Part shown: positions 3,356 to 39,353 of the stretch, piece after piece
Position numbering within the stretch: the first letter of the stretch is position 1
Layout: each line of letters starts with the position of its first letter
From: a virus
IMG/VR virus record: IMGVR_UViG_3300035698_013319
Location: 1 to 46,982 of that record
DNA length: 46,982 bases
Reading direction: 5' to 3' (one strand)
Notes under the pieces: generated by a model
The model's database searches: none
Told to the model about the DNA's origin: nothing
What the model saw: the letters and a program-made list of their open reading frames with translations, nothing else
Program-made: the position numbers and the translations under genes

Positions 3356-6300
3356 TTATCTAACTAAGGGTAAAGACTCAGCGTTGACTCCATATAAATA
3401 TATTGCATAATTAGAACTTTTCCCAACGCCATCTGCTGTATAGTCCTCAACTGTATTTGAATATATTAATCTAGCCGTTACAAAAGCATCTATAAATCGC
3501 TTTCTATCGTGCCATTTAACGTCGTTATTTATTTTAGTTTCATCCAGTTCGTAGAATGGCTGAATCATTGCGTTTTCTCTTCTACGCATAATATCCCTGA
3601 ATGAGTTGAATCTCCAAGTGTTATGCACATTTCTACTATTCCCAGAGAGAGCTGTTGGATTTACAGATACTTCCCCACTGTTTTGATAGTTATTAAATAC
3701 AATTACCTTATCGATTGTTTTGTCTCTTAGCGATATATCGCCAGGTCTAACAACTTGTGTGTTCCAGTTAAGTCCTCTAAGCTGTCCAGAAACGCCCGGT
3801 CCATAGTTAAAGGGAAATACAACGTCCACAAATGATTCGAAGTATTCCTGATTAAAGTATCTACCCCTTATCTCCTCGGAAGTATTGCCTCTGTATACTG
3901 AGGATGAATTAATTATAAAAAAGAAGTTTCCATTTCCATAAGCGACAGGCGTATAATCATGCACTGAAGCCCACGCTTCTATATCTCCAGAATAAGAATA
4001 CGTCCAACTATTTTCTCCGTCTTTTTTAGTGACAAGTATTCTGTTATAGTCCGCATCGTATCCTGCTGTAAATCCAGAAGTGTAAAACGGATTATCATCC
4101 GAAGTAGAGAGTGAGCTGTTATCTCTAAAGAATCTCCTAAGTCCAAAGCCACTTACTTCTTTAAGTGAATCTGTAAGTAAGAATGCTTTGCCTATTTTCT
4201 CATTTACAAAGAAGTAGCCAAGCTTAGAACTAAACGCAGCGTATTTACTTCTTGTGCCTGTAAAGTTATCATTTCCGTCAAGGGCAATAAGTTGTGGCTC
4301 TCTTCCAAATACATCACCAGACCCAAGCACAACTTCAGCGGTAGAAGAAACATTCATAATTTCCTTACCAACAGTTCTGTATAACCCAAACTCTTGATGT
4401 ATAAGTAGTGTATCATTAAGTGAGTCCACATTCCAAATAGCACCTCTATCTCTAGGCATTTGATAAAAATCATTAGGCAAAAATAAGCGTATGCTTGCTA
4501 ACGGATTAGCACCATTTCCTTTTAAAGACCTCGCTATAAGATTCTCGTCTGTTTGATTGTAGGTCTGAGAAGGATCAAAAGGAATTATACTTTGATCTAC
4601 ATTATTGATAGAAGTATAATCAGTATTATAATTTCTCGGTTGAGGAATCGCCATAAAGAAATGCCCCCAATTGTCAAGAACCGAAGCTCCTTCATATACT
4701 TCAGGCACTTCATAATTAGCATATCCTCCTGGCGCAAAAACTTGAGGATTTGATAGTGTTTTTGGATACATCTTTTCAAACCACTCATCACCCTCATAAA
4801 TAAGTCCTGCATTCATCGAGGTATAGAGACTGTATCCATACCAGTTAATTCTTCCCTGGCTGTTAATGCCTATGTCTCCGGTTTCTAAACCTAAAGCGTT
4901 ATCCATAACATTAAAAGAAGGAGCGCTCATTTTAGTATAAACCTTCTGTAAAAAAGTATCGCCACCAAAAAAAACAAAAGATTGTTCTTCACCTGCGCTA
5001 CTTTGATAATCTGCGTATGGATCATACGGAATATCAATTACCTTTCCTGTAGATACTAATCTTTGCTCATAGAAAGAGTTATATAAGTTAGTCTTAAAAG
5101 TCATTAGAGATACTAGGAATCTTTTACCTGTGTTTGATGTCACCACAGAGTCAACCTCTACATAATAAAACTCTTCTCTAAATCCGTTATTGACTTCTCC
5201 AGAAGCATTATCACCATCTATATATTGTCCATTGTCTACTTTAACAACTAAATGATCTGTGCTATTTAAATATAAATTACAACTCGTAGGTGTAGCCCAC
5301 TCATCATCAAACACGTCTGTATTATTTGTTTGTTTGAATCCATCAGAAAAGGAGCCTCCTGTATTTGACCAATACCATTGCTCAAAAGGTGTTAGTTCTA
5401 TTTCTGCCTGAATTTGTAAATAAGAAGGCTTAGTATTTGGTTTAAACTTTAAAAGATCCGGCGGATGAAGTCTTACATACTCATCAGTACCTGAAGCAAC
5501 ATCTTCTGTTCCGAAAGGATCTGTACCGTTAAACATAACAGTTGATCCAAGAGAGAGTGTGTCACCAAGGCCCCTCTCAGCATACACTATTTCAAAGCCT
5601 TTTACCTTATCTCTTATTTCTTTAGGTATAGCAATGTTCTTTACTTTTATACCTAGCGCTTTTCCGAAGTATGCTTCTGTTGCTCCGTCTGAATTGTAGC
5701 CCGGTATGTCTTGAGAAATATTTATTTCTCCTGTAATAAGTGGAGGATTTACATCTGAGTCTGGCTGACCGAAGTTGTGTGATGAAAAAACACAAATTCT
5801 ATCACCAGTTTTCATATCAAAAGCACTATTCATAGCGCTTATTGATGTTGTTTCATTATTTTGCATTGTCACAAAAATAGCGTTGTTTAATGAATATTTT
5901 CCTTTAGATCCTGTTTCTTTACTTATTAAAACAGAAGAAATAACATATCCGATAACGCTAGAATCGTTTGGATTTATTAATGATGTTCCTGGAGTTCTCC
6001 CTGGATAATTATTGGTATTTGCTGCGTTTGTAAAATAAGAAGTCAATATAGTGGGCTCTCCAACGCAAACATAGAACCTATATTCATCATTCCAACTTCC
6101 GTCAACAAATGGAAGATAGAGACCCGTAGACTGATTTATAATACCTAATTGAAAATTATAATTAACAACACCGCCTTCAATAACCAAGTCTCTGTCTGTT
6201 CCGTTTTCAATGTCTGTTATGACGGCCCTACTTTTTATCCCTAAAAATTGATTGTTTATTAAAAATAATTTAGCACTTTCTCTAAGTACAGGATCATCAG

Positions 6301-32459: not shown

Positions 32460-34544
32460 TTACGAAACATTTACAGATGCATTTGCAAGTCTATCTAAAG
32501 AATTACTTTTAGATTTCGTTGGGGAAAGACTTTCATCATACGCTATCTCTTTCATATAATACATACCTACAATCATCGCTGCAACCCTGTCAAACTTACC
32601 TACATTTAAAGAGTCGTATTTTATAAGCTCTAGTAATAACCCGGGGTCATATATAAAATGAAGATTCAATTTAGTGTTGCCCTCAGTATCTACTCCGCGT
32701 GGGGTAAGTAGCCAATCGCGCAGATACAGCTCTCCTTGTTTTCTTTTTAGGTTTAGCTTTCCAGAACCCATGGTCATACCAAATGTTCTAGAGGTAAGTG
32801 GTTTTTTAAGCTTATCATTGTAAGCAAGCTCAAATTCAGGGGCTAATAAATGCAATCGTTTTTTTCTTTTTGCAAAACCAATCACATCCCCCCTGTCATT
32901 CTCAAAACCAATAGTAGCGTTGTAATACTCGGTAAGCATAAACATCTGCTGATTGTAATCATCTAGAAACTTAGGTCTACCCACATAAGAGGCCACAATC
33001 ATATCGTCAGGTCTGGAAAAATTATTCGAGTTTTTGATAACAAACGTAGCGCCAAAAGAAGATCCAGTCGCGTATTCAGTGTCGTTTGCATAGGGATCAT
33101 GGCAAATAAAATAAAGATTATCCGGAATCTTACCTGTAGTAGGATCTCTGTACGGTGTTTGATATACGGTGATACAACCGTTAGGGTCGCCGCCTACTTT
33201 AAATGGAAATTCATTTATCGGCCTGGCTGATTTATCCGGCCCAAAAGATATTTTAGAATCCTTGTCATAGCGCATAAAACCATTAATAGCCATATTTTGA
33301 TAAGCGCCTCGATTGGTGACTAGGTTTAGCTGATCTTGCAAATGTTTTAGTGGAAACATATTGTTACCCACTCTTAGGAAGGCTTCCTGGGGAGAAAAAG
33401 AATATTCTGCAATATACTGGTCAATACTCTTTGGATCTTTAGAGGTATTCTTTATTAAGGTTCTTTTAGACTCTTCATGGATTTTAGCCCCTTGAATATC
33501 TGAGTTTCCATCTTTATCAATAAATCCAGGCTTGTTGAGATAATCAGGTACATAAAAAGAACAAATAGAGCCCTCAGCCCCCTCATCCCAAACATTTTCG
33601 AAAGGAAGTATATTGTATGTAAAAGGATCGTAAAACATATCCTCAAAATCTTCCCAGTTACTATCGCTACCACCGCCGGTACCAAACACAATAATAAGAC
33701 CAGTCGTGTATATTCCATCTTCTACTGTAGGTTTTGTTGAATTGTAGCTCTCCTTTAGATTCGGAAACTTTCCAGCTTCTTCTAATAATATCAATGTACC
33801 GTCTTTTCCTCTGGCCGCACCAGGGTTTGAGTTAAACGTTACTGCATACACTTGAGACTTGTAGCCTTTCTCCACATCCATGCCCCGCTCGTTTTTCTCT
33901 ACAAAGCCTGATTTTACGTGGTCGTTTTTGTTGATTAAGGTTCGCTTGGCCCATCCTGTTTTTTCATTGATAAAAGACAGATAATTATGGGTCATCGTCA
34001 TAGTGCCATCAGGATATAAGTAATCCTTTAAGTATGCGCCTATAACTGTTACAGAGTTTCTTTCAGTGTTATATCTATTAGCGGCTATAAGTCCGTTCTT
34101 ATAAGAATAGCCTTTACGTCTTGATTTGGCGACTAGTAAATGCTTGCCTCTAATCTCTGCCAATTCTTTTGCATGAAAATACGCGTAGTCGCCATCCCAA
34201 AAATCAGGGAAGATCACTTTTTTTCTAATGCCTTTATTCTTAGTGACGAGTTCTCCTTTTCGGCCCGCCATTTTACGTGGATCTTGCGTTAGTTTTATCT
34301 GCGCAAAATTTAAGTACGCATAATGGTCCCCGGTAATTCTAAGCCCGGCTGAGCTATATCCGTTTATACATCGATTGAGCTGCTCGTTCCAATACGACCG
34401 CCATCCTACAGAGCCCCAAGGGTCTGCTGTATAGTAACCATACTTTAAAAAATGTTCAGCCTCCCTTCTAAATTCTTGCGTATTCGCAAACCCTGTATCA
34501 GGAAGATTGATTTGATTTAATCCCGCATCGGTACTCTTATCCAT
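32460..34544 (-). CDS. terL: Terminase large subunit (ATPase and nuclease)
   Basis: The 694-residue protein packages DNA into the head. The Walker A-like segment is AKSRRKGYSYKN (about 139-150), Walker B with catalytic Glu is TLILLEEAGKF (Glu255/Glu256), and motif III is VFGTGGGSD (287-294). The RNase H-like nuclease has Asp483 (YFICHDPYAND), Glu548/Asp550 (IGFENDRGD) and Asp652 (KFDRVAAMIVG). Length and motif forms match crAss-like terminases. It lies 2 bases after the 198-residue gene and 62 bases before the portal gene. Confidence 0.9.
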   Translation of the reverse strand: MDKSTDAGLNQINLPDTGFANTQEFRREAEHFLKYGYYTADPWGSVGWRSYWNEQLNRCINGYSSAGLRITGDHYAYLNFAQIKLTQDPRKMAGRKGELVTKNKGIRKKVIFPDFWDGDYAYFHAKELAEIRGKHLLVAKSRRKGYSYKNGLIAANRYNTERNSVTVIGAYLKDYLYPDGTMTMTHNYLSFINEKTGWAKRTLINKNDHVKSGFVEKNERGMDVEKGYKSQVYAVTFNSNPGAARGKDGTLILLEEAGKFPNLKESYNSTKPTVEDGIYTTGLIIVFGTGGGSDSNWEDFEDMFYDPFTYNILPFENVWDEGAEGSICSFYVPDYLNKPGFIDKDGNSDIQGAKIHEESKRTLIKNTSKDPKSIDQYIAEYSFSPQEAFLRVGNNMFPLKHLQDQLNLVTNRGAYQNMAINGFMRYDKDSKISFGPDKSARPINEFPFKVGGDPNGCITVYQTPYRDPTTGKIPDNLYFICHDPYANDTEYATGSSFGATFVIKNSNNFSRPDDMIVASYVGRPKFLDDYNQQMFMLTEYYNATIGFENDRGDVIGFAKRKKRLHLLAPEFELAYNDKLKKPLTSRTFGMTMGSGKLNLKRKQGELYLRDWLLTPRGVDTEGNTKLNLHFIYDPGLLLELIKYDSLNVGKFDRVAAMIVGMYYMKEIAYDESLSPTKSKSNSLDRLANASVNVS

Positions 34545-37524: not shown

Positions 37525-37553
37525 CAAATATAAAAATTTTATACAAATTACAA
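37525..37553 (-). promoter_or_regulatory. Candidate promoter, near-leaderless, for the 131-aa gene
   Basis: Read on the minus strand: TTG (37553-37551), 18 bases, TATATTTG (37532-37525), which matches the Bacteroidota consensus TTG-N19-TAnnTTTG with a spacer one base short. The box ends 4 bases before ATG 37520, so the transcript would start at or next to the start codon. Confidence 0.5.
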
Positions 37554-37686: not shown

Positions 37687-37995
37687 TCACACAAAGTTTA
37701 AAATATTAATATTAAGCGCATACAGCCCTCGTTCCTTCTTCACCAATATCCCCCGGGTAACCAACCACTTCAATCTTCTGTGATAGGTCACTTCAGGGAT
37801 ATCAAGTCTTTTCATAATAAGTGAGCGATTCTCACTATTAGAATGGAACCGATTCATATTTCGATCCAGTACACGCAGTATCTCAAATAACATCAAGCAG
37901 TAGGGCCCTCCTATTAACTTAAGAAGATGAGCGGTTTTCATTTGCTCCACCATATAAACCCTCCTTGATGAATTAACGCCTCTTTTTCTTGACAT
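37687..37995 (-). CDS. Winged-helix DNA-binding protein (RepL-like or repressor)
   Basis: The 102-residue basic protein has FEILRVLDRNMNRFHSNSEN, then RSLIMKRLDIPEVTYHRRLK (HTH), then LVTRGILVKKERGLYALNIN (wing). The chain 'D.N........i...l.i...T..r.lk.L...Gil.k...GlY.lN' resembles RepL-type plasmid initiators and small MarR/Crp-like regulators. It is the first minus-strand gene; a 19-bp near-palindrome lies 12 bases upstream of its ATG, and more copies occur at 38340-38430. It may repress its own and the opposing genes, or initiate replication at those sites. Confidence 0.62.
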   Translation of the reverse strand: MSRKRGVNSSRRVYMVEQMKTAHLLKLIGGPYCLMLFEILRVLDRNMNRFHSNSENRSLIMKRLDIPEVTYHRRLKWLVTRGILVKKERGLYALNINILNFV

Positions 37996-38004
37996 AGAAT
38001 TTAG

Positions 38005-38027
38005 TTACTATCATTTAGTGACAGTAA
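38005..38027. promoter_or_regulatory. Operator/iteron site O1
   Basis: ACTATCA (38007-38013), five bases, TGACAGT (38019-38025), an inverted repeat with one mismatch; flanking TT and AA extend the arms to 9 bases. It lies just upstream of the winged-helix gene, where binding would affect that gene's own transcription. The same arms recur at 38340-38430. Confidence 0.75.
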
Positions 38028-38060
38028 TATTACGAATACAATTCAGTTTATACAAGTAAA

Positions 38061-38079
38061 AGTATAAAATTTTTATACT
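38061..38079. repeat. 19-bp AT-rich perfect palindrome
   Basis: AGTATAAAATTTTTATACT has 9-base arms around a single central base. It lies directly before the TTTTG element of promoter P1, so it could be a binding site that controls P1 or a strand-opening element. Confidence 0.6.
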
Positions 38080-38080
38080 A

Positions 38081-38112
38081 TTTTGATAAGTGTCCCGTAA
38101 TCACTATATTTG
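38081..38112 (+). promoter_or_regulatory. Promoter P1
   Basis: TTTTG (38081-38085), 19 bases, TATATTTG (38105-38112): a full match to the Bacteroidota consensus. The first 12 bases TTTTGATAAGTG are identical in promoter P2, with the same spacing. Transcription should start at about 38116 toward the terminator at 38158. Confidence 0.72.
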
Positions 38113-38115
38113 AAC

Positions 38116-38191
38116 TCTTGACATATTTCATATTTAAGTTTAGTTTAATTACCGAGTAAGAGCAAGTGCCACACACTTGCTCTTCTTTTTT
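38116..38191 (+). ncRNA. Putative small RNA or attenuated leader, copy 1
   Basis: Between P1 and its terminator lie about 75 bases without a start codon followed by a convincing frame. The product would be a short RNA ending in the 11-bp hairpin. If readthrough occurs it is a leader for the rightward genes. Ends are estimated from promoter and terminator positions. Confidence 0.5.
38158..38191 (+). terminator. Intrinsic terminator of copy 1
   Basis: AAGAGCAAGTG (38158-38168) pairs perfectly with CACTTGCTCTT (38174-38184), 11 bp with a 5-base loop, followed by CTTTTTTG. It points rightward. Confidence 0.85.
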
Positions 38192-38339
38192 GTCCAATCC
38201 ACACTTGCTTCAGACCCAACCACTCATCTCTCCTGGGAACCGTTAATCAATTAATTAACAAATAATTTCCCTTATATTAGGAAGTCTCATGTAAAATGAT
38301 ACAAACTAGTACAAAATCTCTATATTATTTTAGGTAGAA

Positions 38340-38430
38340 ACTATCACCAAATGACAGTGAAACTATCACTAGCTCATGACAGTTGAACTATCACTAGCTA
38401 GTGACAGTCTGGCTCTCGTGAAATGACAGT
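38340..38430. promoter_or_regulatory. Cluster of four operator/iteron sites (O2-O5)
   Basis: O2: ACTATCA 38340-38346, 5 bases, TGACAGT 38352-38358. O3: 38362-38368, 8 bases, 38377-38383. O4: 38387-38393, 8 bases (CTAGCTAG), 38402-38408. O5: degenerate left arm 38412-38418, 5 bases, TGACAGT 38424-38430. Left arms are 22, 25 and 25 bases apart, an iteron-like rhythm. The cluster is about 100 bases upstream of promoter P2. The protein encoded at 37687-37995 is the natural candidate to bind them. Confidence 0.75.
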
Positions 38431-38535
38431 ACGTTTTGCCATAATCCTTAATCCCAGAGAGTATAGGCCCTTTTAGTGAAAACTTAAATACCCTAAGACC
38501 CAAATCTTATTCTTAGATAAGTAAATTTAAGATAA

Positions 38536-38567
38536 TTTTGATAAGTGATTCTTCTTTTCTACATTTG
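38536..38567 (+). promoter_or_regulatory. Promoter P2
   Basis: TTTTG (38536-38540), 19 bases, TACATTTG (38560-38567). TTTTGATAAGTG and the spacing are identical to P1, so the two promoters are duplicated or under the same selection. Start is expected near 38571. Confidence 0.72.
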
Positions 38568-38570
38568 AAA

Positions 38571-38640
38571 TAGTGTTAAAAAGGAAGAGCTAGTCTCTCA
38601 ACTAAAGGAATGTGTCAAGGATGCGTTCCTTTTTTCTTTT
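38571..38640 (+). ncRNA. Putative small RNA or attenuated leader, copy 2
   Basis: About 70 bases run from P2 to its terminator. The stretch AAGAGCTAGT resembles AAGAGCAAGT of copy 1. There is no convincing frame inside. It is either a stand-alone small RNA or the attenuator leader of the rightward genes that begin at 38892. Confidence 0.5.
38604..38640 (+). terminator. Intrinsic terminator of copy 2
   Basis: AAAGGAATGT (38604-38613) pairs with GCGTTCCTTT (about 38623-38632), with two G-U pairs, followed by TTTTCTTTT. It points rightward and stops P2 transcripts about 65 bases after their start. Confidence 0.75.
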
Positions 38641-38704
38641 AACAGACACGTATGAAGTAAAGGTACTTCTCCTGGGAACATATCTAGTGATCCCCATATA
38701 AACA

Positions 38705-38714
38705 CCCCCCCCCC
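38705..38714 (+). repeat. Run of ten C in an AT-rich spacer
   Basis: Ten consecutive C lie between terminator 2 and the first rightward gene. Such a run is rare in this AT-rich DNA and prone to length change by slippage. It may also be a sequencing-sensitive site. Confidence 0.7.
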
Positions 38715-38811
38715 TGGTTACATAAGTTCATACCTCTATATATCCCTAAAAAAAATATTATAAAAAATTTTAAAAGTTTTCCTGTGTGGGTAGCTCCTAA
38801 CATAAGTAACC

Positions 38812-38849
38812 CTCATCAAAATGATGAGTCAGAGTGCCCCGGGTGGGGC
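38812..38849 (+). promoter_or_regulatory. Paired hairpins in the leader of the first rightward gene
   Basis: CTCATCA (38812-38818) pairs with TGATGAG (38822-38828), and GCCCC (38836-38840) pairs with GGGGC (38845-38849). They lie about 43 bases before the ATG at 38892, without a T-run, so they are more likely a 5' leader structure than a terminator. Confidence 0.45.
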
Positions 38850-38891
38850 TAACTTGTTGACAAATCAAAAATCAATAAATAAATAATTATT

Positions 38892-39353
38892 ATGGAAGAA
38901 TTACAAGAGGTAAAGCCGACGATTAAAGCGATTAAAACCGAGTCAATACTGGACGCTACGGAGAAAATTGAGTCGAGAGTAGAAAAAGGAAACTGGAGCA
39001 TAGGCGGTTCATCAGGCGTTCCAGAGGTGATAACAAATGGCGTTGAAGTGGGACAAATAATACCCTTTGATGTTATTGTAATAAACACCAATCCCATTTT
39101 GATTGAAATATCTACTGATACTTACCAAATACTAGTAGTACAAATCGAATGTATCGCAGTAGTCGAAGATAGACAATACAAAGTGAACGTAGGAGTTGAA
39201 TACAAACAGTATTTAAAAAATCCTATTAATGAAGGGACAAGTATTAAAGTAGTACTGAACGAGGGCAAAAAAGGTAAGTTTTATCTTACTTTAGTGCAGA
39301 ACTTTTTACCTAGAAAAACACCAGCCAAAACAACTACTAAAGCTAGAAAGTAA
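38892..39353 (+). CDS. First rightward (early) gene, unknown function
   Basis: The 153-residue protein has an acidic helical start (EELQEVKPTIKAIKTESILD), a beta-rich body (IIPFDVIVINTNPILIEIST, VEYKQYLKNPINEGTSIKVV) and a basic tail (PRKTPAKTTTKARK) that could bind nucleic acid. It is the first gene right of the control region and forms its own unit, closed by a 13-bp terminator 17 bases downstream. A strong early promoter and terminator on both sides suggest high early expression. A small beta-barrel DNA- or RNA-binding protein is possible but unproven. Confidence 0.6.
   Translation: MEELQEVKPTIKAIKTESILDATEKIESRVEKGNWSIGGSSGVPEVITNGVEVGQIIPFDVIVINTNPILIEISTDTYQILVVQIECIAVVEDRQYKVNVGVEYKQYLKNPINEGTSIKVVLNEGKKGKFYLTLVQNFLPRKTPAKTTTKARK

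Follow-up and report, generated by a model that had tools for sequence, protein, structure and literature searches.

A candidate iteron-type replication origin beside a winged-helix gene in a phage related to the Crassvirales

Between the two opposed gene arms of a phage related to the Crassvirales, next to a gene for a small winged-helix (wHTH) protein, lie four intact copies of a repeat site and a degenerate fifth. We see an even balance of evidence for the proposal that these sites are iterons for a RepL-like initiator which would also repress its own gene, the array formed by four of the sites being a candidate replication origin. The DNA analysed, hereafter the window, is an IMG/VR record of 46,982 bases (IMGVR_UViG_3300035698_013319) and represents a contig fragment of the phage genome.

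The window TerL (32460-34544, minus strand) is 34-36% identical to TerL of the Flavobacterium phages Fpv and of crAss-like phages, and the portal and major head proteins match phage families. The leftward genes make up a structural arm, while the genes running rightward from 38892 are short and of unassigned role; gene order, with the arms opposed, is like that of named crAss-like phages. The three homologous proteins, combined with this order, point to a relationship with the Crassvirales. In the window no replication enzymes were recognised and no tRNA genes were found. The minimum of its GC skew falls at 38-39 kb, a turn given little weight because skew follows gene strand and is confounded with it. 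Neither by DNA nor by the 102-aa wHTH protein was any near relative found among GenBank phages or in IMG/VR. The features of the divergent region and its borders are as follows.

37687-37995, minus strand: gene of the 102-aa winged-helix protein, the proposed binder of the sites; first in the structural arm (ORF; model; sub-threshold RepL match)
38007-38025, unstranded: site S0, ACTATCA-N5-TGACAGT, a proposed autoregulatory operator 12 bp upstream of the wHTH start codon (pattern match; position compared with the relatives' proximal sites)
38025-38056, minus strand: candidate wHTH promoter, weak, TTG-N20-TAATATTA, abutting S0 (by eye; inference only)
38082-38190, plus strand: putative promoter-terminator unit 1, TTTG-N19-TATATTTG, then a terminator-like hairpin at 38158-38184 with a T-run (consensus matches only)
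38340-38358, unstranded: site S1 of the array, spacer 5 (pattern match)
38362-38383, unstranded: site S2 of the array, spacer 8 (pattern match)
38387-38408, unstranded: site S3 of the array, spacer 8 (pattern match)
38412-38430, unstranded: site S4 of the array, spacer 5, with TGACAGT as right arm and a degenerate left arm, GCTCTCG (pattern match)
38537-38640, plus strand: putative promoter-terminator unit 2, TTTG-N19-TACATTTG, then a terminator-like hairpin at 38604-38632 with a T-run (consensus matches only; partial duplicate of unit 1)
38892-39353, plus strand: first gene of the rightward arm, 153 aa, function unassigned (ORF; right border of the divergent region)

Pattern matching placed ACTATCA at starts 38007, 38340, 38362 and 38387, and TGACAGT at 38019, 38352, 38377, 38402 and 38424. 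The repeat coordinates of the original prediction, its left-arm distances of 22, 25 and 25 bases, its spacers of 5 or 8 and its degenerate last left arm were all confirmed. The five matched pairs that it described proved to be four exact pairs (spacers 5, 5, 8 and 8) and one degenerate pair, and the arms are imperfect complements: each has a single central A/C mismatch, whose orientation never varies. Every intact site has ACTATCA as its left arm and TGACAGT as its right; the repeats are therefore direct as much as inverted. All of the pairs lie within the divergent region, the four exact ones are the only such pairs in the whole 47 kb window, and no further half-sites with one mismatch or fewer were found in 37900-38900. 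ACTATCA itself occurs 19 times in the window, as compared to 8.2 ± 2.7 expected, a count reached in 0 of 100 shuffles.

Sites S1 to S4 form a 91-bp array in which the half-site starts are spaced 12-10-15-10-15-10-12, mirror-symmetric about 38385. The linker between sites is a constant 3 bp, independent of the inner spacer (5 or 8), and the periods are 22, 25 and 25, the distance from S1 to S2 being exactly 22. A tandem array of one site type with a regular period near a Rep-like gene, as in iteron origins, is thus found in the window and, with period 22, in the related phages described below. Such an array could have arisen by tandem duplication of one unit, but chance or a non-functional local duplication is hardly credible: copy number and confinement are beyond those of shuffled sequence, S0 stands 315 bp off the array, and the relatives show the same format at the same place.

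The predicted structure of the 102-aa protein is a winged helix (core pLDDT 80-90). Pfam gave sub-threshold matches only, among them RepL (PF05732) at 13.8 bits (13.1 in a six-frame search) against a cut-off of 20.3. When compared to the relatives' wHTH family (alignment A6, L128 and relatives), the protein ranked second of 266 window ORFs by hmmsearch, with a non-significant E of 0.17, and gave an E of 0.028 by hhalign. It is shorter than the RepL plasmid replication proteins, and its wing reads YALNIN, as opposed to Y.VNP in RepL. As it has no sequence tie to the relatives' family and scores below the cut-off, the protein was not filed as RepL; its tie to the relatives rests on position, fold, a RepL score below threshold and a site format in common.

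Fold comparison of the model with the PDB returned many generic winged helices without a clear winner, including plasmid initiator domains (4pta, 4pt7), DnaD and a centromere binder. Small wHTH proteins, for example AspA of pNOB8, bind palindromic centromere sites, and Foldseek matched the window model to AspA (PDB 4rs8, 5k5q), among others, at E 0.012-0.03. The array could be taken for a parS/tubC-like site through which a small wHTH centromere protein maintains an extrachromosomal phage genome in dividing cells, a reading with which the report of p-crAssphage as a phage-plasmid (PMC11844821) would agree. AspA and the window protein are both small winged helices, and AspA binds repeated palindromic sites, as is proposed for the window protein, but the structural match is weak and no better than that of many other winged helices. 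None of the neighbouring proteins tested was recognised as a partition ATPase or GTPase partner, and the relatives match RepL, not a partition family; we regard a centromere as improbable.

In IMG/VR, the exact arms of the window sites gave single-site matches, some of them in crAss-like contigs, and those inspected were solitary and inside coding sequence or structural genes; the two-site pattern gave two matches (L126 and L127), both unrelated. Exact TerL patterns matched nothing, so profile searches with TerL were used instead. These yielded IMG/VR contigs at 41-53% in TerL, and the contigs carrying a wHTH gene and sites of the same format lie at 48-53%. In a group of these relatives a homologous wHTH gene stands where the structural arm begins, 2-3.5 kb ahead of TerL, and upstream of the gene are tandem sites of 19 bp (7-5-7) with a 3-bp linker and a period of 22. 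Their letters differ from those of the window: AGTGTAC-N5-GTACACT in L128, L212 and L219, AGGATAC-N5-GTATCCT in L297, and AGGTGAC-N5-TGTACCT in L244. In 12 of the 15 members the best repeat lag (range 15-40) at that place is 22, a value reached by 0-1 of 500 shuffles; the exceptions are L225, with a best lag of 22 at another repeat, and L216 and L230, with a best lag other than 22. The original prediction had looked to related phages for conservation of arms and spacing, and to close relatives for that of the arms; among the distant relatives, the only ones found, the geometry is kept but the arm letters are not. Inner spacers vary in the relatives as well (5 and 6), the 3-bp linker being unchanged; with this slack and the identical arms of the window sites, the suggestion that two spacer classes mean two binding proteins finds no support.

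The direct repeat survives decay of the dyad: in L249 and L244 the dyad is retained at 3-4 of 7 positions and the direct repeat at 18-19 of 19 (L249: 3/7 and 19/19, respectively). For this reason a strict near-perfect-dyad test at lag 22 matched only 3 of 10 relatives, and a direct-repeat test performed better. In L128, L219 and L297 the sites have 7-bp stems and 5-base loops, nearly all perfect, and Crassvirales possess a virion RNA polymerase and express their genes in an N4-like programme (PMC10136315). One may accordingly ask if the inverted repeats extrude hairpins that serve the phage's virion RNA polymerase as promoters, as in N4. We find this very unlikely, in view of the dyad decay in L249 and L244, the mismatch always present in the window arms, and the strict 22-bp tandem pairs, which are unexpected for such promoters.

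The curated RepL cut-off of 20.3 bits is passed by the wHTH proteins of six relatives (L128, 21.5; L212, 20.7; L219, 25.6; L230, 28.1; L297, 25.4; L312, 25.9); L216 (15.9) and L131 (19.5) fall under it, and L214, L249, L244, L240 and L225 gave no RepL match at E 0.01. The original prediction had left a choice between repressor operators and initiator iterons at the small HTH gene. The relatives support a tie between the wHTH protein and the sites, and their similarity to RepL would favour the iteron side. Several relatives have a second, proximal pair of sites near the operon promoter, which in L249 and L297 holds a Bacteroidota-type -7 box, TATATTTG; the distal pair lies about 60-100 bp upstream of that promoter, where an activator could also sit. 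The window shares this plan, with one site at the wHTH start and the array further away. In the longest relative record examined (33 kb), as in the window, the sites are restricted to one place, and there is therefore no scattered regulon.

Other searches gave less. No convincing plasmid homologues of the wHTH protein of L128 were found, and a wHTH profile had no match in four named crAss-like and Fpv genomes, in a search run without a positive control. At 4003-5273, L249 carries a tyrosine integrase gene (PF00589, 36.1 bits), preceded by a tRNA-like 3' end, between its distal and proximal site pairs, and is possibly another temperate relative. A stretch that is similar in L297 (about 300-480) and at the corresponding place in L298 (L230), with a terminator-like hairpin at its end, lies upstream of the distal pair and resembles a structured RNA. 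Clusters of TGACA/TGTCA inverted repeats occur near the divergent region of more distant crAss-like contigs (L135, 1933-2035; L137, 860-990), and L131 and L133 have suggestive repeats; none is of the 22-bp format, and all four were excluded from the argument.

A search of bacterial genomes with the wHTH protein profile identified an independent case in Zeaxanthinibacter sp. PT1, the source of L312. Its wHTH gene and a crAss-type TerL belong to the same element, an integrated crAss-like prophage of about 91 kb that is apparently complete (NZ_JAQPCN010000001.1, about 907589-998656; loci L312, L315 and L316), with these features.

907589 and 998607: 50-bp direct repeat, overlapping a tRNA-Met gene
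910040-911992: TerL
992453-992875: RepL-like wHTH gene
997142-997690: tyrosine integrase

The wHTH gene sits inside the structural operon, with no 22-bp repeat directly before it. In the divergent region about 1.6 kb upstream of the gene, AAGGTGACGTGACGTAACCTTG is followed by AAGGTGATGTGAGGTCACCTAA at 990807-990848 with a period of 22 (0 of 500 shuffles), and these are the sole two forward pattern matches in the 3.3 Mb of this genome.

As an integrase gene is present in two relatives, at least some of them are probably temperate, a point that also suits an account in terms of operators only. There, the wHTH protein would repress its own structural-arm operon at S0 and act on the divergent region from the array, as a developmental or lysogeny switch that takes no part in replication. 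The position of S0 at the start of the wHTH gene, the -7 box inside the proximal sites of L249 and L297, and the generic nature of the winged-helix fold are all in line with such a switch, and distal sites acting on the operon promoter downstream of them would explain much of the relatives' layout. It is less easily reconciled with the RepL scores of the relatives or with the place of the window array, which has the nearest rightward promoter candidate about 100 bp off and the wHTH start more than 300 bp away. Moreover, a wHTH gene at or near the head of the structural arm, and within that operon in the Zeaxanthinibacter prophage, is unusual for a lysogeny repressor. We hold operators without a replication role to be possible but doubtful.

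Iterons are favoured over operators or hairpins because the direct repeat outlasts the dyad, the sites are confined, and p-crAssphage has its RepL at the same divergence. Plasmid Rep proteins assemble on iterons to start replication, and iteron plasmids have repeats of about 22 bp, one of them at the promoter for the gene of the binding protein, and an array set off from promoters. The window likewise has a single type of site, in repeats of about 22 bp, S0 at the gene of the proposed binder and an array off the promoters; its repeats differ from those of plasmid origins in being also imperfect inverted repeats with mirror-symmetric 5-8-8-5 spacers. Another difference is that no DnaA box (TTATCCACA, with up to one mismatch) was found in the divergent region (37996-38891); such boxes are common beside iterons, but not universal.

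According to the iteron proposal, the window sites would be 22-bp-type iterons bound by the wHTH protein encoded next to them. At S0, over the start of the wHTH gene, binding would regulate that gene; at the array (38340-38430), away from recognised promoters, several copies of the protein would assemble and start replication, at the divergence of the two gene arms. Binding of the protein to the sites is supported by the comparison with relatives, and S0 is best read as an autoregulatory operator given the -7 box in some of the relatives' proximal sites, so that the operator and iteron roles may both hold at once. We infer that the window protein binds these sites, that it corresponds to the RepL-like proteins, and that the array is where replication starts. 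The system probably works like a RepL-iteron module.

In p-crAssphage (Carjivirus communis; CrAssphage ZA, MK238400, 96778-97632) a RepL-annotated gene also stands at the divergence of the gene arms, and its wing motif can be aligned to the relatives' wHTH family (hhalign E 9e-5). Unlike the window protein, this RepL has 284 aa and is directed to the replication arm, not the structural arm; it had no Pfam RepL match in this analysis, and no 22-bp site array lies beside it. Two RepL copies of p-crAssphage have been discussed (PMC10136315, PMC7551546).

Already known are RepL in crAssphage, origins of the iteron type and the life of p-crAssphage as a phage-plasmid. For the 22-bp format at the arm divergence, a linker that stays fixed as the letters change, and the symmetric form with four sites, no description was found in the literature searched, which covered few subscription journals and preprints. 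With some reservation, we suggest that phages related to the Crassvirales share a fast-evolving initiator-iteron module at the arm divergence, in which the geometry (19-bp site, 3-bp linker, 22-bp period) would be fixed and protein and site letters would change together, making replication lineage-specific; the window would then hold a mirror-symmetric four-site origin. The array geometry is seen again in relatives from the environment and in the prophage of a bacterium whose genome is sequenced. A 2023 review called the replication mode of crAss-like phages unknown (PMC10136315), and a candidate origin that is short and clearly delimited, and that comes with a candidate binding protein, opens this question to a simple binding and replication test.

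Several other elements surround the array. The stretches 38082-38240 and 38537-38679 are partly duplicated units, each with a Bacteroidota-type promoter (TTTG-N19-TAnnTTTG), a hairpin about 50-60 bp further on, and TCTCCTGGGAAC. These two putative promoter-terminator units flank the array, and two short RNAs could arise from them; Rfam had no match in the window's divergent region, nor in L297, L298 or L128. At the candidate wHTH promoter (38025-38056) the strict promoter consensus had no match on the minus strand. A perfect, AT-rich 16-bp inverted repeat, TATAAAAATTTTATAC, lies on either side of the wHTH gene (37529-37544 and 38062-38077); it could be due to chance in AT-rich DNA, or represent promoter elements or the ends of an invertible segment.
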